Shown here: positions 134 through 50,773 of the stretch, piece by piece | Layout of the letters: the number at the start of each line of letters is the position of its first letter | Position numbering within the stretch: position 1 is the stretch's first letter | Source of the DNA: Oceaniglobus trochenteri | GTDB lineage: Bacteria; Pseudomonadota; Alphaproteobacteria; Rhodobacterales; Rhodobacteraceae | NCBI RefSeq assembly: GCF_020529025.1 | Contig: NZ_JACNMM010000012.1 | Coordinates: 1 to 64,000 of the forward strand | Direction of reading: 5' to 3' | DNA: 64,000 bases | The notes under the pieces: generated by a model | What the model saw: only the letters and a program-made list of their open reading frames with translations | Database searches by the model: none | Told to the model about the DNA's origin: nothing | Program-made: the position numbers and the translations under genes

Positions 134-334
134 GTGGCCCCTAAGTATCCGAACATTACGGTCCAGCTGACTGGGGATGATAGCAATGCATTCATGATCC
201 TCGGGTTGTGCCAACGGGCCGCCAAAGGCGCGGGAATCTCGAAGCAAGAGATCGCCGCGTTCTACCAGGAGGCCACAAGTGGGGATCATGATCATCTGAT
301 CCAAACCGCCATGCGCTGGTTCAGCTGCGAGTAG
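134..334 (+). CDS. small conserved hypothetical protein
   Basis: A 66-residue protein starting at a GTG codon. The pattern (a YPNITVQLTG start, an alternating hydrophobic core, the middle block GISKQEIAAFYQEA, and HLIQTAMRWF near the end) matches a small protein family I recall as common on plasmids and integrative elements, always of unknown function. No signal peptide, membrane segment or catalytic motif is visible. It runs towards the hsdR gene and its last 14 bases overlap the hsdR stop region on the other strand. The GTG start is the first available in frame, has no convincing ribosome site, and could be wrong. The 133 bases before it hold nothing I recognise. Confidence 0.6.
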   Translation: MAPKYPNITVQLTGDDSNAFMILGLCQRAAKGAGISKQEIAAFYQEATSGDHDHLIQTAMRWFSCE

Positions 335-3300
335 CTGCCGAGCTGCTCTGCGTCGCCTTTTTGGCATAGGTCGCTGCGAAAATTGTCTCCGAAAGCCATT
401 TCTTGAACGACGGATTGTCGCTGAACTGCTTGAAAAGTTCGGTGTGGTCTGAAAGCAGCTCGATGACCGCTCGCTCCAGGGCTTTGTCGTGCTCGATACG
501 GGCGTTCTGCTTGTCCGAGTTCTGCATCGCATTCTGGTAGGCTTTGTCGGCCGCGACCTTGGTGGGCAACTCCTCAGCGATCACCTTCCCGATTTTGTCA
601 ACATCCTTCCAATCGATGTTGCCGAACATCTCATTGAACGTCTTCAGGATGTTGCTCAGAAAGTCGAGTTCTGGCTCAGGCTTGCGACCGCCTCCACCCA
701 AAGGTACCGGCCCGATTTCCGCATCCGCATCGGGAAGCGCAATCGACATCGTCGCCTGCGCCTCGACCCGATAGCTGTCCATGTCGATGGCTTCGAGGAT
801 GCCCTTCGAGAGATCCTGCTCCTCAGGCGCTGGCAATTTCGGCGTGAGGAAGTTCAGAAAGATCGAGAGTTTCTCCCACTCCGCGTTCGTGTAGGGCAGA
901 ATGGCCGCGAGGAATCCGTAGGTGCGCGTGAAAGCCTTCGCCTTGCCCTTGAAGTCGACCTGCCCATCTTCATCTAGGTCGGCCTTGTAAACCGCGACAC
1001 ACGCATCGAGGATGGGGTCGAGCTTGTCCCGGTCGGCGCCACCGAGATAAAGCGCCACGAGGTCCTCCACCTGCTCCCAAGAGTAGACTTGGTAGCCGTC
1101 GAGCCGCGCTTTCAGGTCGTGCAGCTTGTTCGGGTCGGTCTCCTCGCTCAGGATCGTCGTGCGGTAGTAGTCCTCGAACGACGCCTTGATGCTATCCACG
1201 TCGTTCATGAAATCCAGCACGAAGGTGTCGTGCTTCTGCGGATGCGCCCGGTTCAAGCGCGACAGCGTCTGCACGGCCTTGATGCCGGAAAGCGTCTTGT
1301 CCACGTACATCGTGTGCAGCAGCGGCTCGTCATAGCCGGTCTGGAACTTGTCGGCGACGATAAGGAACCGGTACGGATCATTCTGGATCGTCTCCTCAAT
1401 CTTGTTGCTGGGAAAGCCGTTAAGCGACGCCTCGGTGACCTTCATTCCGCCATATTCATGCTCGCCAGAGAAGGCGACGATGGCCTGATATGGGCTCTTG
1501 CGCTCTTTCAGATATTCCCCGAAAGCGTGGAAATATTGGATAGCGCGGTGAATACCGCTGGTCACCACCATTGCGCGCGCCGCGCCGCCGATCTTGCGGT
1601 GGGCCATCACCTGGTCGTGGAAATGATCGACCATGATCTCCGCCTTCTTGCGGATCGCATGGTCATGGGACTCCACGTAGCGCCGAAGCTTCTTTTGCGC
1701 CCGCTTGCTGTCAAATTGCGGATCATACTCCACAGTCTTCATCAGGCGGTAGTAGCTGTCGACCGGAGTGTAGTACTTCAGCACGTCGAGGATAAAGCCC
1801 TCTTCGATGGCTTGCTTCATCGAGTAGTTATGGAAGGGGATGTGCCTGACCTTGCCGCCCTCAGGCACCGCCGTGCCGAAAACCTCAAGCGTTTTGTTTT
1901 TTGGCGTGGCTGTAAAGGCGAAATAGCTCGCGTTCGGCAGCACCTTCTTAGCTTCCATAAGCCGGTTTATGGTGTCTTCGACCGTTTCCTCTTCGTCCTC
2001 GGCCCCATTCGCGGCGAGCGCGATGTTCATTTTCGCAGACGTTCGGCCGCCTTGGCTGGAATGCGCCTCGTCGATGATGATGGCGAAGTTTCGACCGCGA
2101 TGGCTGTCGCCGATCTCGTCCAGGATGAACGGAAACTTCTGTACAGTGGTGATGATGATCTTCTTGCCTTGCTGCAGGAACGTCCGCAGCTGCTGCGAGC
2201 CTTCGGTGACTGCGCCAACTATCGAGGATACTTGAGCGAACTGTTTGATGGTGTCGCGGATCTGCTTGTCGAGCACGCGCCGGTCGGTGACTACAATGAC
2301 AGTGTCGAAGGTTGGTTTGCCGCGTGTCTCCAGCCCGATGAGCTGGTGACCGAGCCAAGCGATCGAGTTGCTTTTTCCTGAACCCGCTGAATGCTGGATC
2401 AGGTACCGCTGTCCGGCACCTGCGGCCTCGGCATCAGCCAGCAGCTTGCGCACAACGTCCAGCTGATGGAAGCGCGGGAAGAGCTGTTTCGGTTTCTTTT
2501 TCTTGCCTCGCTCATCGGTCTCCTCAACCACCTGCGCATAGTTTTCGAGGATGTCGGTGAGGTTCCGCTTGGTCAGAATTTGCTTCCACAGATAATTGGT
2601 CTTCAATCCGTTAGGGTTCGGCGGATTGCCCGCGCCGTCGTTCCAGCCCTTGTTGAACGGCAGGAACCAAGAGGCCTTCCCCTTCAGATGCGTGCACATG
2701 CGCACCTCGTGATCGTCGACGGCCCAATGAACGACGCAGCGGCCAAACTGGAACAACAGCTCCTTTGGGTCGCGGTCGCGCTTGTACTGCTCGATCGCGT
2801 CGTCGACAGTCTGTTTAGTCAGGCTATTCTTCAACTCGAAAGTGAAGACAGGCAGGCCGTTAATGAACACGGCGGCGTCGAGCGACAGTTTTGTTTCATC
2901 CTTGGAATAGTGCAGCTGGCGCGTGACACTGAATACATTGGCCGCGAACAGCTCCTCGGCCTTGGTGTTGCCGGGGGTGGGGGTGCCGAAGAACAGCTCG
3001 ACCGAGCCTGGCCCATGCTTCACCCCGTTGCGCAGCAAGTCGATTACACCGCGTTTCGCGATTTCACCCTGCAAACGGTGCAGGAATTGCAGCCGCTTCG
3101 GGCCATCCTCACCAATGCCAAGCGCTTCGACCACGTCTGGCTGAGTGGAATTCAGGAAAGCGAACAGCTTCACGACGTCGATGGCGTGGTCTCGGTCGAA
3201 ATCCTTGGAGTCACCCGCAGTATATCCCGCCTCGTCGATCAGCGAGCGGACGATGAGGGTTTCGAGACCCTTTTCACTCGTGTCAGTGTGCTGCCGCATT

Positions 3301-3875
3301 CGACGAACTCCTTCAACCTGGGTGCCGGGATCGACCCGAATGAGACCTGCTTCGCTGAGGAATGCCTCAAGCATCGGGTCTTTTGCCTCGAACCCTTCGA
3401 TCAGACGTCGCGCCGCGTCGGACGGCATTTCCAGCCGGACACGAGAACTATTGGCTTGGGTCACCGAAGCAATTGATATTTGCCCGAAAGGGACACCGAC
3501 ATACGCGGCAACCATTGAGACTAGGCGTTGCCGCTCTTTTTCGTTCATCTCATCGGGATCACGCGCCACAATCAGATCGACCAGCATCTTTTGTTCTGCC
3601 GACATCGGCGGCGGATCACCGCGTGCAATGATGCACGGCGATTTCTTGTATCGTTGGAGGTAGCTCACGCCCCATTTTTCGTTGTCCGCCCGCTCGTGGC
3701 AGTTGGCGCACAAAGCGATCAGGTTTTCGAGCGAATGGTCCTGCGACTTGCTCCAAGGGATGACGTGCGCATACTCGAGCGGCAGCGACACGCAGCAGAC
3801 CGCGCAATGATGCCGAGCCTCGAAGAGCACATCGCGCTTTATTTCGATTGGGATTGCAGGCCTATTCGTCGGCAT
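321..3875 (-). CDS. hsdR: HNH nuclease-HsdR fusion: type I restriction enzyme R subunit
   Basis: 1184 residues, last gene of the operon. The R subunit of type I enzymes is the ATP-driven translocase and nuclease. Residues 10-65 form an HNH zinc-finger nuclease (Cys24, Cys27, AHVIPW with His37, Asn51, Cys56, Cys59-His60). A short domain at about 143-185 follows, with a beta-strand and helix pattern like the adaptor domains often found next to effectors (unsure). The HsdR proper has a PD-(D/E)xK nuclease (Asp333, Glu347, Lys349), Walker A at 495-502 (HSAGSGKS), DEAH at 601-604, TAT at 654 and a QTLSRLNRAH motif VI. The N-terminal HNH, about 200 residues with its linker, is extra to the usual R subunit. 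It overlaps hsdS by 14 bases. Confidence 0.93.
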   Translation of the reverse strand: MPTNRPAIPIEIKRDVLFEARHHCAVCCVSLPLEYAHVIPWSKSQDHSLENLIALCANCHERADNEKWGVSYLQRYKKSPCIIARGDPPPMSAEQKMLVDLIVARDPDEMNEKERQRLVSMVAAYVGVPFGQISIASVTQANSSRVRLEMPSDAARRLIEGFEAKDPMLEAFLSEAGLIRVDPGTQVEGVRRMRQHTDTSEKGLETLIVRSLIDEAGYTAGDSKDFDRDHAIDVVKLFAFLNSTQPDVVEALGIGEDGPKRLQFLHRLQGEIAKRGVIDLLRNGVKHGPGSVELFFGTPTPGNTKAEELFAANVFSVTRQLHYSKDETKLSLDAAVFINGLPVFTFELKNSLTKQTVDDAIEQYKRDRDPKELLFQFGRCVVHWAVDDHEVRMCTHLKGKASWFLPFNKGWNDGAGNPPNPNGLKTNYLWKQILTKRNLTDILENYAQVVEETDERGKKKKPKQLFPRFHQLDVVRKLLADAEAAGAGQRYLIQHSAGSGKSNSIAWLGHQLIGLETRGKPTFDTVIVVTDRRVLDKQIRDTIKQFAQVSSIVGAVTEGSQQLRTFLQQGKKIIITTVQKFPFILDEIGDSHRGRNFAIIIDEAHSSQGGRTSAKMNIALAANGAEDEEETVEDTINRLMEAKKVLPNASYFAFTATPKNKTLEVFGTAVPEGGKVRHIPFHNYSMKQAIEEGFILDVLKYYTPVDSYYRLMKTVEYDPQFDSKRAQKKLRRYVESHDHAIRKKAEIMVDHFHDQVMAHRKIGGAARAMVVTSGIHRAIQYFHAFGEYLKERKSPYQAIVAFSGEHEYGGMKVTEASLNGFPSNKIEETIQNDPYRFLIVADKFQTGYDEPLLHTMYVDKTLSGIKAVQTLSRLNRAHPQKHDTFVLDFMNDVDSIKASFEDYYRTTILSEETDPNKLHDLKARLDGYQVYSWEQVEDLVALYLGGADRDKLDPILDACVAVYKADLDEDGQVDFKGKAKAFTRTYGFLAAILPYTNAEWEKLSIFLNFLTPKLPAPEEQDLSKGILEAIDMDSYRVEAQATMSIALPDADAEIGPVPLGGGGRKPEPELDFLSNILKTFNEMFGNIDWKDVDKIGKVIAEELPTKVAADKAYQNAMQNSDKQNARIEHDKALERAVIELLSDHTELFKQFSDNPSFKKWLSETIFAATYAKKATQSSSAATRS

Positions 3876-5958
3876 CTGCCCCCTCCATTAACTCGGTGTC
3901 ATCTGTCTCCAGTACGTCGTCCGATAAATCTATGTCTTCCAAGGAAGTGTTTTCGTCCAGAGCAGGAAGCTCGATATGCCTTACGTCCAGTTTTCCGGTC
4001 ACAATGTCGGAAATTAGCCTTTCGCGGTACTCGTTGATCTTCGCGAGTTCAGACTTAAATCTTTTGCGAATAGCCGTTTCGAGATCAATGATGCGCCGTA
4101 TTTCCTGTTGAATTTCGGCCGGTGGAATTCTTATTTTTTCCTTTCGAAGTGATCTTATGTTCAGAGGTCGATTGCGACCTGCAGCTCCGCGAGAGTGTAT
4201 ATCGAGCAATAATTGCCCATAGTCTGATCGAAAGAATGCAAGCAGATAAGAGGTGTCGACGACGCCTTCTGTGCCACGCAATATTGGGTAACGGTGTGAG
4301 GCTATGCACCCGTCAGCTTCATCGCCTACAAGAGCTACCGCCCCCTCCCACGCAAACTGGCCACTAAAGATAAAGTCTCCTGCCTTTATCCAGAAGAAGT
4401 GCGAGTCCCCCAGTTCTTCACCTGGCGTTTCCGGCTTTAGGAACATTCCGCGGCCCCTGTTGTACAAGCCGACAGGGATGTACAAGTTTGCTGGCGCACG
4501 CTCGACCGGTCTGATCACCAACTGTGTTGCAACATCAAGCCTTATCTCTTGCGCGTCTGTAGAATTCATGGCTTCGCGAGTCACAAGCTTAAGACGTTCG
4601 GATGCGGCCTCCGCTATCTTCCTTTTGTTTTGTATGAGGCGACGAATGCGCTGGTCATAGTTCCGAATAAAGGAAACGATTATTCGCTGCTCATCTTCGG
4701 GCGGCTGCATTGCAGGGATAGTGCCAAAGCGGTCCGAATAAAGTCGCAGGAAGCCAGACATGCCGGTTCCAAGCCCTTTGGACTCCTGACGAAATTTGGC
4801 CCTGTAGATGTTCGTCTTGAACAGGTTGACGAAATAATCGGGCTCAATCGGTTGCAGGAGGCGGAAGACCGCATAGTCAGGGCTAACAAGGCCGTCCTCA
4901 CGCGCAACGGCAAACATGCCATTCGATGCCTGCATTCGGTTGAGGACCATTTGGCCGGCTCGGACCCGCTTGTAACCCTTCAAATCCTCTGGCGTTACTG
5001 GCTTGGTCGAGACCTTGTTGTGGGGGATCAACCCGTGTGCCTGGCGCATAGAAAGCAATGTTTCGGTGCCAGTATCCGTTCGATCATCAACTTCGCGAAA
5101 AAGGTACTTGCTTCGCACAACCTGCCAGTGTTCTGGAGCGGCTCCGAGCCAATCATGAGCACTGTCGCGATAACCCGAGTATGGTTTTGGGCCAATGGTA
5201 TTCTCCGCCTCGGCGGCGCGATCAGTTTTAATATCCATTTGGCCCTTGTCGATCATTGGTTGGTCAAAAAGTGAGGGTTGCGGCAGGTCGCGCGGCGGTG
5301 GTGGAGCAACCGGGCGTTCGTGACGTGCATCAAGCCCAACGGGCCGACGGCTACCGCCAGCAGCGCAAATCACCTCAATAGGTTGGCGGAACAGAAGAAA
5401 TTCCGGGATCGACAGCGGTTCGATCTCGTGCAGGCTCTCCGCCTCATCGCCCTTCAGCTGCTCGCGCAGTTCCATCAGCAGTCGGCCAAGCACGTTCATG
5501 CCGACGAGAGTGCCGTCGTCAATCACCTTCGCGCCCCAGAAATCATCCTTGCGGGATTGCTCGACGATGGGCCGGTCCCCGGTCGACAGCAACAGCCTGC
5601 CGAACTCATTCCAGTTCTGCGCCAACTTCACCCGCAGGCTCCAGCGCATGATCTTCACGCGTACTGCGTCCCAATCCGGCCTCGAATCCTTGCGGAACGG
5701 CTTGCTCCGCATTTTCGCCGTCATCGGGCTACGCTCGTCGATGATCGTGCGCTGCACATCCGGCAAATGCGGAAAGCGGCACGCCTGATAAAGAGCCTCC
5801 GACGTTCGGATGCGGACACCGTTCACACATAGCGGAAAGCCTCCAGCCATATTCGACAACCCGCCAAACCGCTCCTTCGTCTTGAGGAAGACGACGCTTG
5901 TTTCGCGGTCATATGTTCGGAACTGATTATTCCGGGACGCTTCAGAAGTCGAAGTCAT
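3862..5958 (-). CDS. hsdS: NADAR-HsdS fusion: type I specificity subunit with N-terminal NADAR domain
   Basis: 698 residues against about 400-450 for an ordinary HsdS. Residues 20-168 are a NADAR (YbiA-like) domain: TSEALYQACRFP at 52-63, SPMTAK at 77-82, WDAVRVKIMRW at 96-106, LLSTGDRPIVEQ at 123-134, KDDFWGAK at 137-144 and NVLGRLLMELRE at 155-166. NADAR enzymes cleave N-glycosidic bonds, including ADP-ribose attached to guanine. A low-complexity Pro-rich linker (about 205-230) leads to two HsdS target-recognition halves (about 256-460 and 470-650), each ended by a helical repeat, followed by an acidic tail. HsdS sets the DNA target for methylation and cleavage. It overlaps the PRTase-like gene by 17 bases and hsdR by 14 bases. 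Confidence 0.9.
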   Translation of the reverse strand: MTSTSEASRNNQFRTYDRETSVVFLKTKERFGGLSNMAGGFPLCVNGVRIRTSEALYQACRFPHLPDVQRTIIDERSPMTAKMRSKPFRKDSRPDWDAVRVKIMRWSLRVKLAQNWNEFGRLLLSTGDRPIVEQSRKDDFWGAKVIDDGTLVGMNVLGRLLMELREQLKGDEAESLHEIEPLSIPEFLLFRQPIEVICAAGGSRRPVGLDARHERPVAPPPPRDLPQPSLFDQPMIDKGQMDIKTDRAAEAENTIGPKPYSGYRDSAHDWLGAAPEHWQVVRSKYLFREVDDRTDTGTETLLSMRQAHGLIPHNKVSTKPVTPEDLKGYKRVRAGQMVLNRMQASNGMFAVAREDGLVSPDYAVFRLLQPIEPDYFVNLFKTNIYRAKFRQESKGLGTGMSGFLRLYSDRFGTIPAMQPPEDEQRIIVSFIRNYDQRIRRLIQNKRKIAEAASERLKLVTREAMNSTDAQEIRLDVATQLVIRPVERAPANLYIPVGLYNRGRGMFLKPETPGEELGDSHFFWIKAGDFIFSGQFAWEGAVALVGDEADGCIASHRYPILRGTEGVVDTSYLLAFFRSDYGQLLLDIHSRGAAGRNRPLNIRSLRKEKIRIPPAEIQQEIRRIIDLETAIRKRFKSELAKINEYRERLISDIVTGKLDVRHIELPALDENTSLEDIDLSDDVLETDDTELMEGADADE

Positions 5959-6988
5959 CTAAATCGACCTCTTGTTCATATGTGCGCCGTTGCAGCAATG
6001 GATACCACTTGCTGAACGGATGATTGCGGTGGGCATCGGGATCGCCCCACCACAAGGCGAGGGGCGCGTTGTTGGGACAGTTCCGATAGGTCACGATGGT
6101 CGAGCCGAAGCCGACGCCAAAACCACTGAACCCGAGAGGGCGCATGATGGCTGAGGGGTTCTGGCAAAATCCACGGATACGCACGCCCGCCATGAGAAAT
6201 TCGCGTTCGAGCAGTTGGCGACCTTCGTCTGATGAGAATATCTCGATTTCTGGCTTGCCGCCCGGTTGGCGTAGCTCCAAGGGGAAACGTCCTTGTTGCG
6301 CCAAATAGGCCGCGAGAGCAGGATCATCTGGGACGGTCGCGGGCCAAAGGACTTCAGACGTACTTCGGTACGCTTTTCTGTTCTCTATTCGCGCTGCTGC
6401 CCAAACATGGAGCTCAAGCTCTTTGCCGGCGGCGGCAGCAACTTCCTTGAGGCTCTTTGTAGACTGCCATTCGCCAAGTCTATGCGTGGCGATTACGAGA
6501 ACGTGCACCACCGCCTTCGCTGGCGCAGCTTCCCTGATCCAGGCCGTCAAGTCATTTTTCACTCGGCCACCAGTGAAAATAACGTCGTCCAAATAGACGT
6601 ATGCACCACCAGGGGCACCACAAGCATCAAGGTTTAGCCCGCACTGTTCCTGAAGAGATTCCCCGAAGAGCCTCCGTATCTGTGTCTGACTTTGCCCATT
6701 CTGTTGGATGTCTAAAAGATGTGCGCGCGACCAGAAACCGGCAATATCTTTGCCAGTTAGATTCTCGTGATTAATCTGTGCAGAAAAAAAGCCCTTAATC
6801 CATTCCTCGGAGAAGTAAGTCTGCTTGAGAACGTGATCCATCTCGCGAAGGATCGGTAGTTGCACGTCCGCGCCAAACTGATTGATCCACCGCTCTACAT
6901 GATCTGGAGTCGGTGCCGGAAGATCGCCTTCGCGATAATCTGCAGTTGTTGCTGCTATTGAAGCAAGGAGGTCATTTCGCTCAGTCAT
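5942..6988 (-). CDS. phosphoribosyltransferase-like protein
   Basis: 348 residues. The only clear motif is YVYLDDVIFTGGRVKNDL near residue 130, which matches the PRPP-binding loop of type I phosphoribosyltransferases (hydrophobic strand, two Asp, then TG). A helical N-terminal part lies before it. The C-terminal third (RIRGFCQNPSAIMRPLGF, then PLALWWGDPDAHRN) resembles the C-terminal block of PRTase-like proteins found in bacterial conflict systems (the PRTase-CE type). The substrate is unknown. It sits between the DUF262 gene (39-base gap) and the NADAR-HsdS gene (17-base overlap), so it is surely co-transcribed. I infer that it makes or removes a ribosyl or ribosyl-phosphate group relevant to the NADAR domain; nothing in the sequence proves this. 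Confidence 0.75.
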   Translation of the reverse strand: MTERNDLLASIAATTADYREGDLPAPTPDHVERWINQFGADVQLPILREMDHVLKQTYFSEEWIKGFFSAQINHENLTGKDIAGFWSRAHLLDIQQNGQSQTQIRRLFGESLQEQCGLNLDACGAPGGAYVYLDDVIFTGGRVKNDLTAWIREAAPAKAVVHVLVIATHRLGEWQSTKSLKEVAAAAGKELELHVWAAARIENRKAYRSTSEVLWPATVPDDPALAAYLAQQGRFPLELRQPGGKPEIEIFSSDEGRQLLEREFLMAGVRIRGFCQNPSAIMRPLGFSGFGVGFGSTIVTYRNCPNNAPLALWWGDPDAHRNHPFSKWYPLLQRRTYEQEVDLDDFDF

Positions 6989-7027
6989 TTGTAGCTCTTC
7001 GGTATGAAAGTAAAAATTAGCTGTTGC

Positions 7028-8824
7028 TTATAAGCCTTCGAAGTAGGTTTTTATCTTCTGCGCCATCAGTTTTCGGCGCTGTTCGAGAAAGTCGTCAAAG
7101 GTCGGGATATCACCGTCTAACAGACTCGCCGGCAGACAGCTCATCTGCAAGTTCGACCGCATCTCATCACCAGTCGTGATCCCGCCATACCTCTTGGGGC
7201 CGCCGTTGCATTGTTCAGAAAGCTCGGTGAAATAAACCTTCGGATCGCGATCACCGATGCCGATATTTATCTCGCTTTGAGCCAGGACGAAGTTGCCAAT
7301 CTGATTGTAGCGGCCTCGCGTCAGGCCCTGGCCCTTGAGGTGATTGCGTGGATAGACATGGTGCACGTCGCTGCGGTTCAGCAGCAGGTCGCGCACGGTT
7401 ATATCGCGAGACAGGAAACCGAGATCACCGAGCTTTGCCTGTGCTGCCTGATAGACCAAGAAATAGGGGCTTGAACCTGATGAGGTTTCCATCTCCTGCG
7501 GCAGCAGCGTATTCCAGAAGCTCTCGGGCAGTTCGGCGTCGATCACGGCATCAGTGTAACTAGCCAAGCCACGAGATTCGATCTGGCGAATATCGAAGTC
7601 GAATGCCGTTTCTGGGCTTCCCGAATAGCGCCCACGAAGCAGCGACATGACGTACCAGCGCCGCACAAGACGCTCCAAGTCGGCAGCGGGCATGCTTTCA
7701 GCTCGACCTCTCAAGTAGAGAATGTAAGCAAAGTTGATCGCGTTCTGACTACGGATTAGCCTTGAGGTCACAAAACCAGCCGAGCGAAGGATCATCGTCA
7801 ATCGGTCGAAATGAGTTTTGTTTATAAAATTCAGGACGCCTGTCTTCAGGCGGGAAAAAGCCTCTTCTGCGACAGCTTCTTCATACTGCTTTGTCTCGAA
7901 GTTTCGACCCGATAGGAGGGCGACAAGGTCTTGGAGCTTTCCGCGTCGGAATTCAGATGTGAACGCAACTCGTAGCATGTCTGTGTAGGTGGGATCGTAG
8001 AGGTCGTCATTGACGTCTTTAAGCCAACGCATCTTCGGGAGGAATTCGGATGTGGCGAATGCCTTATCGCCCTTTTCAATTCGAGGCAAAAATTCAGGCG
8101 CGACAGCAAGGTGGCAGAAATAGTCTATCGCCTTTCGCAGTATGTTACCGCCATAAGTGTCGTTCGCCGCGATTTTCGACATGGCGAAGTCAGCCTGGCT
8201 GAGCGATGCACCGGCCGAGTTCACTCGGATGAAGATCTCGGTCACCGTCTCGATATCGAGATCTTCAGCCAGTTCGATGATGCCAACCTGGTTATTTATA
8301 ACCTTGCGAACCTTCTCCAGCACCAATGAAATCTTATCCTGATCAGCCTCTGGATTGCGCGCTGTGTATTCACGCGTGAGCTTGGTCAGGCTGGCGTCAG
8401 GCGCGAAAACCGTCGCCAAGTCAGGGATCCATGAGGCATCTTTCTGGATGGCCGGGTTCGAGACCTCGAAGCGCTCGTCGACTGGGTGGAAAGCGATCCG
8501 GATGCGTACCGTCTCGTAGTCCTTGGTGAGTACCTCCTGGCCGAGCAACGCGGCCATGAGTGCGGTGACGCGCTGCTGCCCATCGATCAGAATGCGTTTG
8601 CCCGAGGATGTGGAGCCATCCTTCAATCGGACCGACGGGTTTCGCCAAGCGATCAGATAGCCGACCGGGTAGCCCTGATAGAGTGAGTCTAGCAGGTTCC
8701 GTACCTTGGTCGCATCCCATACGAAGGGGCGCTGGATCTCTGGGAATGCGATCTCGCCGGACTTCACCCAAGTCAGCAGTGTCTCAATCGGATGGGGGGT
8801 CACGGAGTAGCGCTGGGTGGCCAT
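7028..8824 (-). CDS. DUF262 / HNH (GmrSD-like) protein
   Basis: 598 residues. The N-terminal DUF262 domain (ParB/Srx-like NTPase fold, the GmrS half) has its signature [10 protein letters not shown] at about 80-89, preceded by [12 protein letters not shown] central helical region follows. The C-terminus has an HNH/DUF1524-type nuclease signature: [12 protein letters not shown] from residue 487 and [14 protein letters not shown] near 508-521. This is the single-chain form of GmrSD, the type IV enzymes that cut DNA with modified bases in an NTP-dependent way. It starts 2 bases after hsdM ends, so it is part of the operon. Having it between M and S is unusual. Whether it restricts modified DNA here or helps the type I complex is not visible. 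Confidence 0.88.
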
Positions 8825-8826
8825 TC

Positions 8827-10959
8827 TCAGTGACCTCCCGTCAGCACGTCTTCAAGCAGCCCTTCGGTTTCCTCCTCAAGCGCCCGGATGTCAGATTCAA
8901 TCTCCTGGAGTGTCCGCAGGGGTTGCGGTTTGTAGAAGTGCCGCGTGAAAGATATTTCATAACCGATCACGGTTTTCGACGGGTCTATCCAGGCGTCAGA
9001 CGCGTGAGGCAGAACCTCACGACGAAAAAAAGCCTCGATACCGCCGCTCTCCAAGAATGGAACCTGCTCTGTATCTCTTAACTCCGTGTCCGGCTCATAT
9101 TCGACGATCACCGCTTTGCCGCCTACGGTTTGATGGTAGCTGCCGCGCAGCGCGTCGGTTTCGGCATCGGCGCTTTGCTTGATCTTGGTCACCTTCCTAA
9201 TAACAGGTTCCGCTTTAGGATCCTTGATGCCCAAACCCGCCATCAGGAGCTTTTGGCGTTTTGCCGTCATACGGACGCCGCGCTTGCCCGCAACAACTTC
9301 GGCTTCTTTAATGAAGTGGTTGAAATCGAAATGGGGGCCATCGCCAAGCCGTTCGGTCACTTCTTCCACAACGTTAAGGAGGGGCTCGTCATCAGCCTCC
9401 GTGCATGTCTTAGTGAAGAGACGCTGCGCGCTAGCCGAAAGTTCGACCTTCAAGCGCAAGGGCCGCTCGACGGTCACCTTCCAGTAGCCAAATGCATCGT
9501 TGGGAAAAATCTTAGACTGCTCATTTTCCTCGCTGTTGAGGAAGCTATCGCAAATTCGCTTGATGTCGTCCGGCCCAAGAACGCAGTTCTTCTTGCCAAG
9601 GTTCTTGCGCAACGGCTTGAACCAAGTCGTCGCATCAATCAACTGGACCTTCCCCTTACGGCATGGTGCCTTGCGGTTACTGAGCACCCAAATGTATGTT
9701 GCGATACCAGTGTTGTAGAAGATGTTCAGCGGCAGCGCGATGATTGACTCGAGCCAGTCGTTTTCAATTACCCAGCGCCGAACATTGCTCTCGCCTGATC
9801 CTGCGTCGCCGGTAAACAAAGCCGACCCGTTGTGTACTTCTGCTATGCGGCTGCCGACTTTGCTGTCTTTCTTCATCTTGCTCAGCATATTGGCCAAGAA
9901 AACCATCTGACCGTCACTGGAACGGGTGATCAGACTAAATTCTGGGTCGCCGCCATGCTCGATGATGAAGCGAGGGTCGGTGATATCCTTCTTGCCGCCC
10001 ATCCGGTCAAGATCGGATTTCCAGCTCTTGCCGTATGGTGGGTTCGACAGCATGAAATCGAATTCTTTCGACGGGAAGGCGTCGGCTGACAGTGTCGAGC
10101 CATATTTCATGTTCTCAGCTTCGGCACCTTCACCCTTTAGGATCAAGTCTGCCTTGCTGATGGCGAAGGTTTCGGGTTGAACTTCCTGTCCGTATAGATG
10201 GACCGAAGCTTCTTTGCCGTGCTCCGTAGCCAGCTGGATAAGCTTTTCCTCTGCCACGGTTAGCATGCCACCAGTGCCGCACGCGCCGTCATAGACAAGG
10301 TAGGTCCCGGACAGGATGTCGTCCGCTATTGGTTTGAAGATGAGGTATGCCATGAGTTCGACGACATCGCGAGGCGTGAAGTGTTCGCCGGCTTCCTCGT
10401 TGTTCTCTTCGTTGAAGCGCCGGATCAGCTCTTCGAAGATTGTACCCATGGAATGGTTGTCTAGGCCGGGTAAGCGTTCGCTGTCATCTCGGTGAAGAAC
10501 TGGTTTTGGGCTGAGATTGACTGACGGATCGAGAAACTTCTCTATTAGGAATCCTAAGATATCCGCGTCTACAAGAGTCGGGATCTGATTGCGGAATTTG
10601 AACTTTTCTAGAACCTCCTGAACGTTAGGCGAGAAGCCATCAAGGTATGCTTCAAAATCCGCTTTTAATTGCTGGCGACGGGCCTTTGATGTCAGATCCC
10701 GCAGGCGAAATTGAGAGGTATTGTAGAAAGCCTCACCAGACGCCTGACAAAGTGCTGCATGCTGATTTGCAACACCTGCTTTGTCGAGCTGGGACTTCAT
10801 TGCGAGAACCGCGTCTTTCGTCGGCTCCAAGACGGCATCAAGCCGACGAACGACAGTCATAGGCAGGATGACGTCCCGATACTTGCCGCGCACATATACA
10901 TCGCGAAGAACATCGTCGGCGATGTTCCAGATGAAATTGCTGATGTTCAGATCACTCAC
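8827..10959 (-). CDS. hsdM: type I restriction-modification methylase subunit HsdM
   Basis: 710 residues. An N-terminal helical HsdM domain (1-150) precedes an N6-adenine methyltransferase domain: motif X at [13 protein letters not shown] (about 191-203), the SAM-binding motif I DGACGTGG (224-231) and catalytic motif IV NPPY at 306-309. It transfers methyl groups from SAM to adenine in the target set by HsdS and protects host DNA. The C-terminal 250 residues are longer than in EcoKI-type M subunits, but such tails are common. It lies 9 bases after the small HTH gene and 2 bases before the DUF262 gene. Confidence 0.94.
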
Positions 10960-10968
10960 TCCGGCCCC

Positions 10969-11169
10969 TCACGTTTTGGTCTGTGCAGCTTTTTTCTGCA
11001 TATCGATCCAGCTATCGAGGTCTGATCGCTTGAACCGCCATGCACCGGCCACCTTGAACCCTGGTAGATCTCCACGTTTGGCTAGCCGATAAACCGTCTT
11101 CTCGTCGACGTTCAGGTAGCCAGCCACATCTCGCACTGTCATGGCCTGGTCAGGCGTATCCGCCATCAT
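10969..11169 (-). CDS. excisionase-family helix-turn-helix protein
   Basis: 67 residues from the ATG at 11169. That start is chosen because a GAGGG ribosome site lies 7 bases upstream; the frame opens further back (to 11238) but those extra residues look non-coding. The sequence MTVRDVAGYLNVDEKTVYRLAKRG then FKVAGAWRFKRSDLDSWI is a textbook MerR/excisionase-type winged HTH. It is the first gene of the R-M operon, with hsdM 9 bases behind it. Proteins of this family at the head of type I operons are usually annotated as binding or excisionase proteins. A role as operon regulator is my inference. Confidence 0.85.
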   Translation of the reverse strand: MMADTPDQAMTVRDVAGYLNVDEKTVYRLAKRGDLPGFKVAGAWRFKRSDLDSWIDMQKKAAQTKT

Positions 11170-11510: not shown

Positions 11511-12428
11511 CTATTCCGCCTCGGGCGGTGGGGCAGAGGCCATCTCGGAGATGGCTTGAAATTCTGTCAGAAACTCCGGCCGATGTTGCATCAGGTACCG
11601 AACGATCCGGGCGTTCCCAAGAAGCTTTGCCAGATACCCCTTGATGACAGTCAGCTGCAGGTGGTCCTGGCCGTAGGAGTCTTGGATCGATGTGATCCCT
11701 TCCTGCAGCCGGGCCAGCTCGCGCTCCATGCGAGCCATGGCCTCCGGGGTGATGCCTCTCATCTTCTTGGGTTTCTTGGTGTCCACCAGCTGCGTCTGGG
11801 GCGTTCCCGCCAGAATTGCAGAGATGTATGCCGGAGAATAATTGTTCGCGTTCATCATCAGCTCGGCGGCCTCAATCTGGCGCATGGCTTTCATCTTGCG
11901 CAGGACTTCGAACACGGCGGTCGCGCAGTGTTTGTCCTTCAGGATGCCGACGGCCTCTTCGCAGATCCCATCGAGGAGCCGGGCCTTGCGCACAATGCTG
12001 CGCGGATTGAGGTCCAGCGCCAGAGCAATCTTTTCCTCGGATACCCCACGCTCGATGGCCCTGCGGATCATCTTGTGTTCCTGAATGGGCGCAAGGCGGC
12101 TGATCCGCTTGTTATAGGTAAAGGCCTCGTCGTCCGTGGAAATCAGACATTCGACTCGTTCGACGCCGAGATCCTTCAACACCTCGATCCGGATATGCCC
12201 GTCAAGCAGCATATAGGTGTCTTCCTCACCCGTGGATCTCGTGACCACCGGCGGTTCGACCAGGCCAACCTCTTTGATCGACGCAGTGATCTGGCGGTAC
12301 TTGCGGCTGGATTTGACCGATGCGCTTAGCGCCTTCACGGGCAGGACAGCCTCTACCGGTACAGTGATGCAATCACTCTCAAAGCCGAGCGCAACCGCGT
12401 CCGGGGTCTTGCACTTGCCCCGGCTCAT
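11511..12428 (-). CDS. ParB/RepB-like partition-family protein (RepB C-terminal type)
   Basis: 305 residues. The ParB N-terminal nuclease-like domain has GLVEPPVV and LLDGHIRIEVLKDLG at about 54-90. An HTH follows (SEEKIALALDLNPRSIVRKARLL). The C-terminal half resembles the plasmid partition protein RepB C-terminal domain, ending in an acidic PPPEAE tail. Its first 4 bases overlap the stop of the other ParB gene (ATGA). ParB proteins bind centromere-like DNA, but no parA or centromere is in view, so a partition role is doubtful. More likely it is an accessory DNA-binding partner of the upstream recombinase. Confidence 0.82.
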   Translation of the reverse strand: MSRGKCKTPDAVALGFESDCITVPVEAVLPVKALSASVKSSRKYRQITASIKEVGLVEPPVVTRSTGEEDTYMLLDGHIRIEVLKDLGVERVECLISTDDEAFTYNKRISRLAPIQEHKMIRRAIERGVSEEKIALALDLNPRSIVRKARLLDGICEEAVGILKDKHCATAVFEVLRKMKAMRQIEAAELMMNANNYSPAYISAILAGTPQTQLVDTKKPKKMRGITPEAMARMERELARLQEGITSIQDSYGQDHLQLTVIKGYLAKLLGNARIVRYLMQHRPEFLTEFQAISEMASAPPPEAE

Positions 12429-13336
12429 TCGGCCGCTCCCGCATCCAGTGATTGCCCGAGATAGGTGGGCAGGGTATCCAGCCCCTCCGCGCGCAAGAGA
12501 GTCAGGAAGTGGTCATCGTCGCGCAGCGAGCGAAACGCCTCCACGACGAACATCAGGCGGCCTTGTGTCAGTTCGGCTTTCTTGATCAGTATCTTCTGTC
12601 GCTCCGCTTCCTGTTGATAGGCTCGCACAAGCGCGTCGCTGGTCAGGGGCCGCTTGGTGCCGTCGCTTCTGCCATAGCGGTTGCGATGAAGGTGCGGGCC
12701 CTGCGCATCACGTAACTGGATGAGACGACGCACAGCGGCCAGTTTCTTACCGCGCAGCTTTTTCTGGGTGTAGGCGTCCATCAGAGCGCGCTGTCCGCCC
12801 TCGGCATCTGTCTTTGAAATGTCGATGGCGAGGTTCAGCGGCAGAAGGCCGGTTTCCACTGCCGAGACCAGCCGTTCTTCGCCACGTTCCAGAAGCCCCG
12901 CAATCATTCCGACATAGTCTGGCGTGACGCCGATCTTGGTGGCAATCTGGCGGTCGTTGTAGCCGCGTTTGCGCAGGTTGCCGATTTCGCGCATCAGGTC
13001 GATCGGGTTGTGCTGGCGGCGCGCGCAGTTCTCCACGAGGCTCATGACGAGGCAGTCGCTCTCATCGGCGTCGATGATGATGGCCGGTATGGCATCCTGC
13101 TGGAGCTCCATGAACGCCTCGAGCCGACCCTGACCGCAGACGAGATCATACTCCGCGGGATCTGTCCCGGCACGTTGCGCGACGGTGATTGGTCGCTTCA
13201 GACCGATCTTCGCAATGTTATCGACCATTTCTTCGAAGGTGCGCCGGTTGCGCACACGGGGATTGAGAATACGAATTCGGTCGGTGGGGATGAGAGTGAC
13301 GTGTTTCTGGGCAATGTCTTGGGCGTCATCTGGCAT
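12425..13336 (-). CDS. ParB N-terminal domain protein
   Basis: 303 residues from the ATG at 13336, which overlaps the recombinase stop by one base (TGATG); the frame opens 87 codons further but that stretch lies inside the recombinase gene. The ParB domain shows NPRVRNRRTFEEMVDNI, RPITVAQR, LVCGQGRLEAFMEL and SLVENCARRQHNP, then an HTH (YNDRQIATKIGVTPDYVGMI). The GQGRLEA box is the ParB/Srx nucleotide-binding signature. With the neighbouring RepB-like gene it gives a pair of ParB proteins behind a serine recombinase, all translationally coupled. Confidence 0.85.
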   Translation of the reverse strand: MPDDAQDIAQKHVTLIPTDRIRILNPRVRNRRTFEEMVDNIAKIGLKRPITVAQRAGTDPAEYDLVCGQGRLEAFMELQQDAIPAIIIDADESDCLVMSLVENCARRQHNPIDLMREIGNLRKRGYNDRQIATKIGVTPDYVGMIAGLLERGEERLVSAVETGLLPLNLAIDISKTDAEGGQRALMDAYTQKKLRGKKLAAVRRLIQLRDAQGPHLHRNRYGRSDGTKRPLTSDALVRAYQQEAERQKILIKKAELTQGRLMFVVEAFRSLRDDDHFLTLLRAEGLDTLPTYLGQSLDAGAAE

Positions 13337-14910
13337 CAGGCGGCCTCCGTGATCCGGGCCCGGCCAGCGAGCGCATAAAAATAGTCGAGCGTGTCGAAGC
13401 GGTAGGCGTCCAGCGACAGCCCGTTCTGCTCGGCCAGCCTCAGTCTGGCCATGGTCATATCGATGCTCGGCAGCAGGTAATAATCGCGTGGTGTTTCGTT
13501 CAATTCGTCCATTCGCACGGCAATCGTGATGTCGGGCACCAGGCCAGTATCGAGACGGATGCGCCATCTCAATGATCCGCCCTGCGTCTCGAAACATCGG
13601 GCCAACACCACCGACGCCGTGAACTCGTCGTTGATCCGGATCAGCTCCGTGTCCGGATCCTGCACCGCCTGTCCTCCACGCTCCGCGACCCCGTCGAGGA
13701 TCCGGGCTACGATGCCGGGGTGGGCCTGCCGCAAGGCCCGGTTGATCTCGACGTAGCGATAGTCGCGCTCTGGCTCGTAACCGATCATCTGGTAAGCGCG
13801 CAGCAGGCTGCCGAAGCGGTTCCGAAAGGCGCTGGACGACGGCAGGTTGTCCTGTTCATCGATGATCAGTCCCGACAGCACGCCTTTCTGTTTCAGCACG
13901 GCGCGCAGGGCTTCGAGCAGTTCGGAATCTGTGAAATGCTGGCTGCGCGCGTCGACGATTTCGCGTGCGCGCAGATACAGCACCTCGTCCACAATGGCGG
14001 GGTAGGCGCCCTCCGCCCGGATCCACATTTCGCGTGGGTTCACCACTCGCTTGTGCTTCAGCTTGAAGGACACCTTGTTGTAAACGTTGTTGCCGATGTA
14101 TTTTTCGTTGGTCAGGACCTGGTGCACTGATGCCCGGGACCATGGCCGCTCAAGATCGGTCAGATGCCCCTCGGCATTCAGGGTTTCCGCAATCTCACGC
14201 TCCGAGCAGCCATCCTCGACGAACATTCGGTACATGCTGCGCACGACATCCTGTTCCTGATCAGGGCCTGGAATGAGGACGACACGGTCAGTCTGAAGGC
14301 TCTTCTGTTCGCCGCGGGACAAGGCACCCTTCGGGTTGCCGTGTTCATCGATAAGCACCCGGCGCAGGCCGTATCCAGCCGCTCCACCTTGGCGGTAGCC
14401 AAGCTCAACCAGGCGGCATTGCCCAGCGAATACCTTCACGGAAAGCTCACGGCTGTATTCGCCGGCCATAACCCGCTTGACGGTTTTCAGAAGGTTGGAG
14501 CCGATGCTGCCGTCGTTTTCGAACTGCTCGCCGCAATAGTGGACCCGGATCCCGGCACGAGAGCAGACATGCTCGTGGTAGGCCCCTTCATCAGCATCCT
14601 GAAACCGGCCCCAGCGGCTGACGTCATAGACCAGAATGGCCTTGAAATCCGCTTGGCCGGTTCGGACCTCGGCCATCAGGTTCTGAAGCGCCTCGCGGCC
14701 GTCCAACCGCAACCCGGACCGACCGGAGTCCTCGAAGACGCGCAGGATCTGCAGGCCCCGGGCGGTGGCGTAATTCCGAATGATATCGAGCTGGTTCTCG
14801 GTCGAGTACTTCTGGTGATCGGTCGACATCCGCACATAGGCGACGGCCGGCACATCCGTTTCAGGCGGCTCGTCGCTCTTGTCGGAATGGGTCGTCCATC
14901 GACCAGTCAC
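13336..14910 (-). CDS. large serine recombinase (resolvase/invertase family)
   Basis: 524 residues from a GTG with a GAGGAG site just upstream. The resolvase catalytic domain starts at AVAYVRMSTDHQKYSTENQ; Ser29 is the nucleophile, and the Arg residues in DSGRSGLRLDGR and DVSRWGRF complete the active site. A recombinase domain follows (about 180-330: GGAAGYGLRRVL, SVHQVLTNEKYIGNNVYNK). The usual Cys-rich zinc ribbon of large serine integrases is not obvious; the C-terminal 180 residues are of a different, unrecognised type. It is the first gene of an operon with two ParB genes. It may integrate or excise the island, but no att pair can be assigned. Confidence 0.9.
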   Translation of the reverse strand: MTGRWTTHSDKSDEPPETDVPAVAYVRMSTDHQKYSTENQLDIIRNYATARGLQILRVFEDSGRSGLRLDGREALQNLMAEVRTGQADFKAILVYDVSRWGRFQDADEGAYHEHVCSRAGIRVHYCGEQFENDGSIGSNLLKTVKRVMAGEYSRELSVKVFAGQCRLVELGYRQGGAAGYGLRRVLIDEHGNPKGALSRGEQKSLQTDRVVLIPGPDQEQDVVRSMYRMFVEDGCSEREIAETLNAEGHLTDLERPWSRASVHQVLTNEKYIGNNVYNKVSFKLKHKRVVNPREMWIRAEGAYPAIVDEVLYLRAREIVDARSQHFTDSELLEALRAVLKQKGVLSGLIIDEQDNLPSSSAFRNRFGSLLRAYQMIGYEPERDYRYVEINRALRQAHPGIVARILDGVAERGGQAVQDPDTELIRINDEFTASVVLARCFETQGGSLRWRIRLDTGLVPDITIAVRMDELNETPRDYYLLPSIDMTMARLRLAEQNGLSLDAYRFDTLDYFYALAGRARITEAA

Positions 14911-15004
14911 ATGCGTATCTCCTCATAATTCCAGGCAAATCCATCGCTCCATTCGGAATCAACGGTTGAATTCTTCGCATCCATGTAAAGCGAAGGAGTG
15001 TGGA

Positions 15005-36470: not shown

Positions 36471-37631
36471 ATGACCGCTGCAATCGACTTCACCAAGAAC
36501 GCGAAACTCCTGAAAGCCCCACCGGGCATGTATCGCCACGATGGCGACCGCTTTCCGGGCCTATATCTGAACGTCGGGAAGCGGCGTTCGACGTGGTATC
36601 TCAAGAAGCGCGTCGGCGGTAAAGTAAAGTCGATCAAAGTCGGCGCGTTCCCCGACATGGATGCCGCACAGGCGAGCAAGCAGGGCGAGACCAAGACGAC
36701 ACAGGTGCGCACCAGCCCGGACATTACGACCGTGCGTGACGGCTGGGAGAAGCACTGCGACACGTCGCAGGCAATGGGGTCGATGTCCGACAAGCACCGC
36801 GCCGACATGACGGCCAAGCTGGAACGCCACGCCCCGGACATCCTGAAACTGCATGTTGCCGACGTGACCTCCGCCCGCGTGCAGGACGTTGTGAACGGCC
36901 TCGCGAAGGACGGCATGAAGGCAACGGCCCGCCATGTGCGCACGGCCCTCGGGTCCGCCTTCAACTACGCGAACGTCCCCAACCCTGTATCCGGCAAGAA
37001 GGTGCGTGCGCCGAGTTCGGGCGAGACGGAAACCAAGTGGACCCTCGCCTGCAACGCGCACGGCCTCGACGAGGACGACTGGTCGCCCATGTGGGAGGCG
37101 ATCATGGGCATGGACAACGCCCTGCGACGCACGGCTTGGGTCGTGATGCTGTTCACAGGCATTCGCGCGGGCAACGTCCGTTCACTGCGCTGGGACCATA
37201 TTGACCTCCAGATGCGCACGATCCACCTGCCGAAGATGAAGAACAAACTGGCTCGCACGTTGCCTATCTGCGACACGGTGGCTCGCGCTCTGACGGCGAT
37301 CCGGGGCGGCGGTTCCGACTTCGTGTTTCCGGCACATTCCAAGACGGGGCATATCGACCAGCTCGACGTGCTGTCCACTACCATCGAAGGGAAGCAGGTT
37401 CCGGTCTTGAGCCAGCACGACACCCGGCGGCACTTCATGCAGGCGGGCGCGGAGGCGTTCCTGCCCGATTACGTGATCCACTATCTGCGCGGCGACGTGT
37501 CGGGCGGCAAAGGTAACGACATGCTGATGAAATACATGAAACGGATGGGCAATCACCGCGCGCCTGCGGAAATCGAAAAGGTCGTCTTGCAGCGGATTAA
37601 GGTAGAACCTTCTTTCGACATTGTTTCTTAA
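36471..37631 (+). CDS. tyrosine recombinase/integrase
   Basis: 386 residues. An N-terminal Arm-type region (YRHDGDRFPGLYLNVGKRRSTWYLKKR) precedes the core-binding domain (about 85-160) and the catalytic domain: Arg in FTGIRAGNVRSLRWDHID, a Lys in the beta hairpin, His-x-x-Arg in SQHDTRRHFMQAGA and the Tyr nucleophile candidate in MLMKYMKRM. It is the integrase of the tRNA-Thr element, transcribed away from the nearby att repeat. Confidence 0.93.
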   Translation: MTAAIDFTKNAKLLKAPPGMYRHDGDRFPGLYLNVGKRRSTWYLKKRVGGKVKSIKVGAFPDMDAAQASKQGETKTTQVRTSPDITTVRDGWEKHCDTSQAMGSMSDKHRADMTAKLERHAPDILKLHVADVTSARVQDVVNGLAKDGMKATARHVRTALGSAFNYANVPNPVSGKKVRAPSSGETETKWTLACNAHGLDEDDWSPMWEAIMGMDNALRRTAWVVMLFTGIRAGNVRSLRWDHIDLQMRTIHLPKMKNKLARTLPICDTVARALTAIRGGGSDFVFPAHSKTGHIDQLDVLSTTIEGKQVPVLSQHDTRRHFMQAGAEAFLPDYVIHYLRGDVSGGKGNDMLMKYMKRMGNHRAPAEIEKVVLQRIKVEPSFDIVS

Positions 37632-50696: not shown

Positions 50697-50745
50697 ATGG
50701 TGCCCCCACACGGACTCGAACCGCGGACCTACTGATTACAAATCA
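50697..50745. repeat. right attachment repeat (49 bp)
   Basis: Identical to 36257-36305. Here it is the 3' part of the complete tRNA-Thr gene. Confidence 0.93.
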
Positions 50746-50773
50746 GTTGCTCTACCAGCTGAGCTATAGGGGC
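50698..50773 (-). tRNA. tRNA-Thr (anticodon TGT)
   Basis: 76 nt with CCA encoded at 50698-50700. The acceptor stem is GCCCCTA against TGGGGGC (G-U pair accepted), the D arm has AGCTCAGCTGGTAGAGC, the anticodon arm CTGATTTGTAATCAG gives anticodon TGT, and the T arm has GGTTCGAGTCC. It reads ACA threonine codons. Its 3' part is the integration target. Confidence 0.96.

Follow-up and report, generated by a model that had tools for sequence, protein, structure and literature searches.

A type I operon with an embedded anti-phage pair

We analysed a 64,000-nucleotide stretch of the Oceaniglobus trochenteri genome (assembly GCF_020529025.1, contig NZ_JACNMM010000012.1, positions 1 to 64,000; hereafter the window), in which a type I restriction-modification (R-M) operon encloses a phosphoribosyltransferase-like (PRTase) protein and a NADAR domain fused to the specificity subunit HsdS. 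The original prediction, made from the letters of this DNA, had described a single minus-strand operon of six genes, and the open reading frames (ORFs) match it exactly. At 321-11169, the genes run in the order helix-turn-helix (HTH) protein, hsdM, DUF262, PRTase, NADAR-HsdS and HNH-HsdR, separated by gaps of 9, 2 and 39 bases and then joined by overlaps of 17 and 14 bases. Moreover, Pfam finds both N-terminal additions that had been proposed, NADAR on HsdS and HNH on HsdR, each in one ORF with its subunit.

The PRTase gene (5942-6988; all operon features are on the minus strand) encodes a protein matching Pfam PRTase-CE at 201.8 bits and the NCBIfam model DS32_1_antiphage at 416.9 bits (cut-off 250). 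The ORF that follows (3862-5958) is a single NADAR-HsdS fusion of 698 amino acids, with Pfam matches to NADAR (86.9 bits) and Methylase_S (33.9 bits), and its NADAR domain, residues 14-194 (5377-5919), reaches 290.2 bits against DS32_2_antiphage (cut-off 240). Both cut-offs are exceeded, and the two genes are adjacent and co-directional, the PRTase coming first and the 17-base overlap lying between them. By these profile scores, the PRTase and NADAR of the window are the known anti-phage pair DS-32 (NF053875/NF053876). An Escherichia coli pair (L098) exceeds the same cut-offs. Of 5426 E. coli genomes, 63 match its DNA, 43 of these along 80% or more of its length. At least one RefSeq record names its proteins 'phosphoribosyltransferase-like anti-phage protein' and 'NADAR family anti-phage protein', while other records read '-like protein' and 'NADAR family protein'. 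The gene order is that of the window; the window pair, however, lies inside a type I operon with its NADAR fused to HsdS, whereas the E. coli NADAR is a separate protein of 205 amino acids.

All three type I subunits were found with the expected domains. The hsdM gene (8827-10959, GTG start) encodes an N6-adenine methyltransferase (N6_Mtase 174.6 bits, HsdM_N 85.2 bits; PADLOC MTase_I 836 bits over residues 5-706) whose translation holds an NPPY motif. The HsdS part, residues 255-698 of the fusion (3865-5196), has two target-recognition regions (Methylase_S in two stretches; Specificity_I 187.5 bits), and the HNH-HsdR fusion of 1184 amino acids (321-3875) carries the restriction nuclease and its superfamily 2 motor (HSDR_N 67.3 bits, SWI2_SNF2 102.3 bits). 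It should be noted that HsdM and HsdR fall below the cut-offs of the NCBIfam hsdM and hsdR models (85.5 bits against 242.75 and 208.8 bits against 284.55, respectively). Unlike standard type I systems, the operon has N-terminal enzyme domains on HsdS and HsdR and two genes between M and S.

The set is not undescribed in all its parts: PRTase plus NADAR is DS-32, and DarTG2 within a type I operon has been published (PMC12255303; here and below, PMC numbers refer to the accessible part of each article). DS-32, type I R-M and the embedding of toxin-antitoxin modules in R-M operons are all already known. In enteropathogenic E. coli, DarTG2 lies inside a type I system on the RRDM island, where, as presumed for the window, a toxin-antitoxin of DNA ribosyl chemistry shares an operon with a small regulator as first gene; Septu in Hma is mentioned as well (PMC12255303). 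There, DarTG2 consists of separate genes between hsdS and hsdR, whereas in the window PRTase-NADAR lies between M and S with NADAR fused to S. The DarT-NADAR and YarT-YbiA pairs likewise place an antitoxin of the NADAR/YbiA family beside an ADP-ribosyltransferase-type toxin (PMC11125620), but the partner in the window is a PRTase-CE protein and not an ADP-ribosyltransferase fold. DarTG itself was rejected for the window operon, since the scanned window genes match no DarT model and none was found in the first 14 kb (L153). In the literature searched, which left out most subscription papers, preprints and supplements, we found no NADAR-HsdS or NADAR-HmaB fusion, no clamp-type motif in NADARs, no swapping of PRTases, no paper on PRTase-CE and no mechanism for DS-32.

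Conservation of the core and its host operons

To survey relatives, a profile from four PRTases was compared with genome contigs of 84,980 species, and the best 80 of 164 relatives were examined, together with 33 loci on viral contigs and 3 on plasmid records. With L001 (the window itself) and L090 (the same contig stretch as L054) dropped and the window added, the final set held 116 loci: 48 R-M-linked (hsd), 62 free pairs, 4 of Hma type and 2 of helix-hairpin-helix (HhH) type. The best 80 genome loci divide into 43, 31, 4 and 2, respectively. Three loci (L021, L035, L075) were counted as free, their weak hsd-like matches lying on the opposite strand. The set was gathered through the PRTase and is therefore enriched for window-like PRTases; a part was scored present on a tblastn match to the window protein at E 1e-3, a threshold that distant versions may escape. 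On viral contigs, an alignment scan gave the 33 loci, one of which duplicates a genome locus; the other 32 comprise 28 free pairs and 4 R-M-linked loci, on contigs where phage, prophage and host DNA were not told apart. A single-protein scan of viral contigs found no relative. One record labelled as a Klebsiella plasmid (L004) is 5.37 Mb long and resembles a chromosome.

The core HsdM > PRTase > NADAR > HsdS > HsdR was complete, on one strand and in this order, in 45 of the 48 R-M-linked loci (window included), and the remaining three (L059, L069, L116) are truncated where their contigs stop. NADAR and HsdS form one ORF in 47/47 evaluable R-M loci, that is, those with an uncut NADAR and without the duplicate. 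Over the whole set, NADAR comes next after the PRTase in 115 of 116 loci, the exception being L035, where the contig stops 81 bases past the PRTase ORF. The search for conserved gene order that the original prediction had suggested thus supports a single operon: the added parts do occur with hsdM/S/R elsewhere (43/80 genome loci), and a chance neighbourhood was rejected on the constancy of the core. By label, the R-M-linked loci belong to Pseudomonadota (33), Thermodesulfobacteriota, Planctomycetota and Verrucomicrobiota (2 each), and Myxococcota, Chloroflexota, Acidobacteriota and Minisyncoccota (1 each), about eight labelled phyla overall, many of the loci being metagenome bins in which single phylum labels may be wrong.

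On a tree of NADARs from 114 of the 116 loci, the R-M label requires 7 changes, compared to 34.8 in shuffles, and the starred branches alone are compatible with a single origin of this label. Two free pairs (L040, L041) are nested among fused ones and are probably secondary losses. In L041, the free pair is followed by a 355-residue ORF (11804-12868) without a Pfam match.

Of the six-part set of the original prediction, M, PRTase, NADAR-HsdS and HsdR make up the core. Five of the 48 R-M-linked loci, counting the window, have the full architecture with HTH, DUF262 and HNH included. By tblastn, DUF262 was matched in 19/48 and HTH in 21/48, while HNH was found in 8/48, sharing an ORF with HsdR in all eight; HNH and DUF262 were rejected as core parts on these counts. 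Where present, DUF262 lies between HsdM and PRTase and HNH lies on HsdR. In the window, the optional HNH domain covers residues 24-70 of HsdR (3666-3806; HNH 30.4 bits, HNH_2 27.2 bits). The DUF262 gene (7028-8824; HEC-05 110.4 bits) had been predicted to encode a DUF262/HNH protein. The DUF262 half is supported by its sole Pfam match, GmrSD_N, at 102.3 bits, and the HNH-like C-terminus appears in the translation as an H-H/N motif without a Pfam match, while the criterion for a GmrSD type IV system is DUF262 plus DUF1524. The first gene (10969-11169; its frame in the ORF list starts at GTG 11238) encodes a small HTH_17/excisionase-like protein (Pfam HTH_17 63.3 bits) that resembles MAD1, scoring 78.5 bits against NCBIfam MADS1, slightly below the cut-off of 80. 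The methylation-associated defence system (MADS) is a set of MAD1-MAD8 proteins, and membership was rejected, the HTH protein alone being near its cut-off (MADS2 32.2 against 720 and MADS5 17.2 against 400).

In several loci, other genes stand between NADAR-HsdS and HsdR: an AAA gene and a McrBC-component gene (L060, 13001-16776), a Schlafen AlbA_2 gene (L076, 13151-14638), HTH plus Peptidase_M78 (L077, 6046-7227) and DUF1828/1829 (L079, 13592-14428).

From the R-M side, PRTase-NADAR is not the rule. At the level of the class, HsdM was matched at E 1e-100 in 21 of 385 genomes, with 11 places reaching 68% identity. PRTase-NADAR occurs at two of these, the window and L145 (whose contig seems to be that of L039), and DarT-Macro at two others (L146, with a partial DarT match, and L149). 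L147, L148 and L151 showed M, S and R only, L150 showed these three and a DUF262 fragment, L123 and L125 stop at the contig edge, and L152 showed HsdM only. Because of these mixed states, PRTase-NADAR is one of several options in the type I family of the window. At the level of the phylum, 3 of 398 genomes pass the DS32_1 cut-off (with one further weak match), namely that of the window and two that belong to a single genus and carry PRTase-NADAR within Hma-type operons. None of 60 relatives of the window's genome carries the PRTase.

Sibling type I operons illustrate the other options. In Meiothermus (L142), the order is HsdM, DUF262, HsdS, DUF4433, macro, AAA, DUF4276 and HsdR, and a Synechocystis sibling (L144) carries DarTG as well, a toxin-antitoxin module that acts through ADP-ribosylation of DNA; an Aeromonas operon (L143) is plain M-S-R. 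That DUF4433 is DarT was confirmed for the homologue in L083 (NF048013, 238.9 bits, cut-off 150). This Acidobacteria-labelled operon holds both modules, with DarT-Macro (13223-14936) before HsdR besides PRTase-NADAR-HsdS. On an HsdM tree of 51 rows, the PRTase-NADAR, DarTG and plain states interleave. The Synechocystis locus is plasmid pSYSG_M of strain PCC 6803, where DUF4433/macro and zeta-toxin genes lie inside the type I operon.

The pair also inhabits another host operon, the Hma system (PADLOC HmaA/B/C), which is not in the window, and four loci have a fusion of NADAR with the adenine methylase HmaB. For example, in L050 HmaA (1583 bits) is followed by the pair, whose NADAR is fused to the N-terminus of HmaB (1102 bits), and HmaC (801 bits) comes next. 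The fusion in L057 scores 1211 bits as HmaB, that in L011 is one ORF with NADAR and Pfam DUF1156, and that in L013 was recognised by alignment, HmaA and HmaC being scored. Two further loci (L158, L159) show the same Hma order, but NADAR is encoded on its own there, its stop codon overlapping the start of the gene that follows; in L158, HmaA, HmaB and HmaC were all scored. In L064, NADAR is fused to an HhH domain (65 bits), and L058 is a look-alike of this fusion by sequence. Given the HsdS, HmaB and HhH fusions, NADAR has become attached more than once to partners that recognise or modify DNA.

Features of the NADAR linker and the PRTase

By sequence, the closest solved relative of the NADAR part is YbiA (2b3w, 72.5 bits). 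YbiA also cleaves phosphoribosyl riboflavin intermediates, which is reflected in the NCBIfam name TIGR02464. An AlphaFold2 model of NADAR-HsdS (mean predicted local distance difference test, pLDDT, 77.3; predicted template modelling score 0.51) has two better-predicted parts flanking a linker, residues 201-254, with pLDDT < 50. Foldseek searches with this model returned the type I S subunits 7vs4, 1yf2 and 5ybb, YbiA 2b3w, and a NADAR bound to ADP-ribose (8bau).

Inside this low-pLDDT segment, residues 227-231 (5266-5280) read QPSLF, which would suit a client of the sliding clamp. The common clamp-binding motif is QL[S/D]LF, more generally QxxLF, and that of PolC is C-terminal (PMC12309361). 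The motif was first noticed by eye, at the ends of free NADARs and as QxSLF in fused linkers, and tested afterwards. Of 43 distinct fused linkers, 36 contain strict QxxLF (same-residue shuffles: mean 0.22, maximum 3 in 2000 shuffles). Among 45 distinct free tails, 14 have it within their final 12 residues (shuffles: mean 0.26, maximum 4), and relaxed forms, which were selected once the sequences had been inspected, raise this number to 33.

In the PRTase, a PRPP-binding-type motif lies at residues 130-146 (6551-6601), YVYLDDVIFTGGRVKND. Among 65 aligned PRTases, picked with near-duplicates, plasmid loci and L046 left out, D134 and G140 are present in 65/65 and D135 in 64/65 (one E). The AlphaFold2 model of the PRTase has a mean pLDDT of 90.8. 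A PRTase profile compared with solved structures gave marginal matches: eight PyrR chains (E 0.41-0.95), a phosphotransferase system (PTS) component (0.59) and an unrelated EF-hand protein (0.0071).

We examined variability in 22 operons, window included, whose HsdM is at least 78% identical to that of the window (19-22 sequences per part, 6 for HNH). Mean pairwise identity is 89 for HsdM, 94 for DUF262, 94 for HsdR, 96 for HNH, 89 for HTH and 82 for NADAR, compared to 66 for the PRTase, which forms three clusters at 65%, and 47 for HsdS. For example, L022 and L056 have HsdM and HsdR that are 98% identical and PRTases that are 47% identical. The two large PRTase clusters are alike over their first 60 residues (0.66-0.89 per 20-residue bin), and beyond residue 60 the bins fall mostly at 0.20-0.57, with one at 0.74. 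Strict linkage of PRTase type to HsdS type was rejected, as the 65% clusters cut across each other. From these identities and crossing clusters, the PRTase is a second variable part that is not tied to HsdS type. Its variability may reflect evasion of phage inhibitors or differences in substrate, and its occurrence among otherwise near-identical operons would make the PRTase a likely target of phage counter-measures. L006 and L055 have NADARs that are 92% identical beside PRTases that are just 52% identical, which fits better with a NADAR that erases a product than with a partner-specific inhibitor.

Proposed function and genomic surroundings

The ribosyl/ADP-ribosyl theme of the original prediction gained support from the NADAR fold near YbiA and the ADP-ribose-bound NADAR, from the intact PRPP-type motif and from the DarTG siblings; the operon may write or read a mark on DNA. 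We favour, at about an even chance (roughly 0.5), a writer-eraser reading: the PRTase would deposit a toxic adduct of ribosyl type, NADAR would take it off self DNA, and the fusion would tie this eraser to the R-M complex. The PRTase, using PRPP or a related ribosyl donor, would place the adduct on DNA nucleobases (or nucleotides), and its toxicity would stop phage replication. NADAR would hydrolyse the N-glycosidic adduct and clear self DNA; the NADARs tested so far reverse the ADP-ribosylation of guanine in DNA (PMC11125620). Through QxxLF, NADAR would be recruited to the sliding clamp and clean the host's DNA as it replicates, and the HsdS fusion would add loading by the M2S complex. Since the NADAR eraser is part of HsdS, inhibition of the R-M complex by a phage, or its loss, would remove the eraser too and release the PRTase as a back-up to restriction. 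PrrC in EcoprrI is similarly a toxic effector in a type I locus that is activated when restriction is inhibited, although it is an anticodon nuclease (PMC12707154), and such coupling in the window would be an analogy. DUF262 and HNH would act as optional extra nucleases. The PRTase reaction, its DNA target, delivery to the clamp and the freeing of the PRTase once R-M is attacked are steps that we infer. The sequences themselves show the composition and order of the operon, the conserved NADAR-HsdS fusion, the PRPP-type motif, the likeness of NADAR to YbiA, the QxxLF motif and the swapping of PRTases, and the DS-32 identity, the position of NADAR after the PRTase, the HsdS, HmaB and HhH fusions, the QxxLF motif and the DarTG siblings were counted in support.

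Several points weigh against this reading. The strict QxxLF motif is absent from 7 of the 43 distinct fused linkers and present in only 14 of the 45 free C-termini, and through shared descent these counts are not independent events; even the relaxed motif occurs in none of the four HmaB fusions and in one of the two HhH fusions. A possible internal ATG start (M241, 5236-5238) with a Shine-Dalgarno (SD)-like site 5 bases upstream could yield HsdS alone, and 21 of 47 fused loci, window included, carry a linker start codon with an SD-like site, a count made without a shuffled control; these genes could thus give an unfused HsdS. Foldseek matches of the PRTase model to uracil and orotate phosphoribosyltransferases are weak (best E 1e-3; TM 0.26 on the query and 0.40 on the target), and no activity of PRTase-CE is reported in the literature searched. 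The name DS-32 presumably derives from DefensePredictor, whose main text, in its accessible part, mentions NADAR and PRTase domains but not DS-32 (PMC13092281). Siblings without the module exist (L143, L147, L148, L151), and on the HsdM tree, whose PRTase rows were picked by a PRTase query, the states cluster no more tightly than shuffled labels do, the PRTase state taking 7 changes (4 forced by starred branches) against a shuffled mean of 7.6. Moreover, the coupling to R-M inhibition is drawn only by analogy to PrrC.

The interleaving of the three states on the HsdM tree, with at least 4 PRTase changes forced by starred branches, would also suit an independent DS-32 that uses the operon promoter, fused for co-expression, stoichiometry or retention and having no cross-talk with restriction. 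At 31 of the 80 genome loci DS-32 is free, in E. coli its two proteins are annotated as anti-phage, and embedding without fusion is published for DarTG2 (PMC12255303). We regard this as possible though doubtful, because such an arrangement needs no repeated fusion to the subunit that recognises or modifies DNA, and a fusion is present in 47/47 evaluable R-M loci, with a separate one on HmaB. It is improbable that NADAR on HsdS instead strips ribosyl-type protection from phage DNA for HsdR, with DUF262 as a type IV nuclease and the PRTase in a supporting role. DUF262 proteins do include the modification-dependent nucleases GmrSD and BrxU (PMC12707154), and the L060 operon holds AAA and McrBC-component genes, but NADAR is paired with the PRTase also without R-M (31/80 genome loci) and DUF262 is optional (19/48). 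For NADAR domains, soluble ADP-ribose derivatives have further been suggested as substrates (PMC9503650), in line with a scheme in which the PRTase makes a soluble ribosyl nucleotide on infection, NADAR degrades it, the HsdS fusion links its level to R-M, and HNH or DUF262 respond. This seems quite unlikely to us, as the partners of NADAR bind or modify DNA (HsdS, HmaB, HhH), the clamp-type motif also points to DNA, and no effector is constant, DUF262 and HNH being optional.

The repeated fusion to DNA-recognition or DNA-modification subunits and the clamp-type motif hint that DS-32 acts on DNA at replication forks and that a second chemistry can be coupled to type I restriction. Because of the fusions, the mechanism of DS-32 becomes testable. 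If the PRTase modifies DNA, immune effectors that modify DNA would include phosphoribosyltransferases alongside the DarT-type ADP-ribosyltransferases. The recurrence of the arrangement in distant bacteria suggests a defence that joins methylation to a second, sugar-type DNA or nucleotide chemistry. We advance only tentatively, and with some doubt, the idea of a new class of combined defence, in which HsdS bears the eraser of a second, non-methyl DNA modification: the PRTase would place a phosphoribosyl-type mark on bases, NADAR, loaded through the sliding clamp and HsdS/M2S, would clear self DNA of it, self would be defined by methylation plus active removal, and the arrangement would have arisen at least twice (HsdS, HmaB).

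Directly upstream of the operon, window positions 11511-14910 hold two ParB/RepB-like genes and a large serine recombinase. The operon of L055 is preceded by the same three genes, 71-83% identical, and this holds for no other R-M locus searched; the operon may therefore move with this ParB/RepB-recombinase cassette in some genomes. Elsewhere in the window, a phage-type integrase (36471-37628) and a tRNA-Thr gene (50698-50773), with lower GC at 44-48 kb between them, may mark a second genomic island. Within this candidate island, an AAA_15/AAA_21 ATPase (44492-46453), OLD-like or AbiEii-like, is a possible second defence gene.

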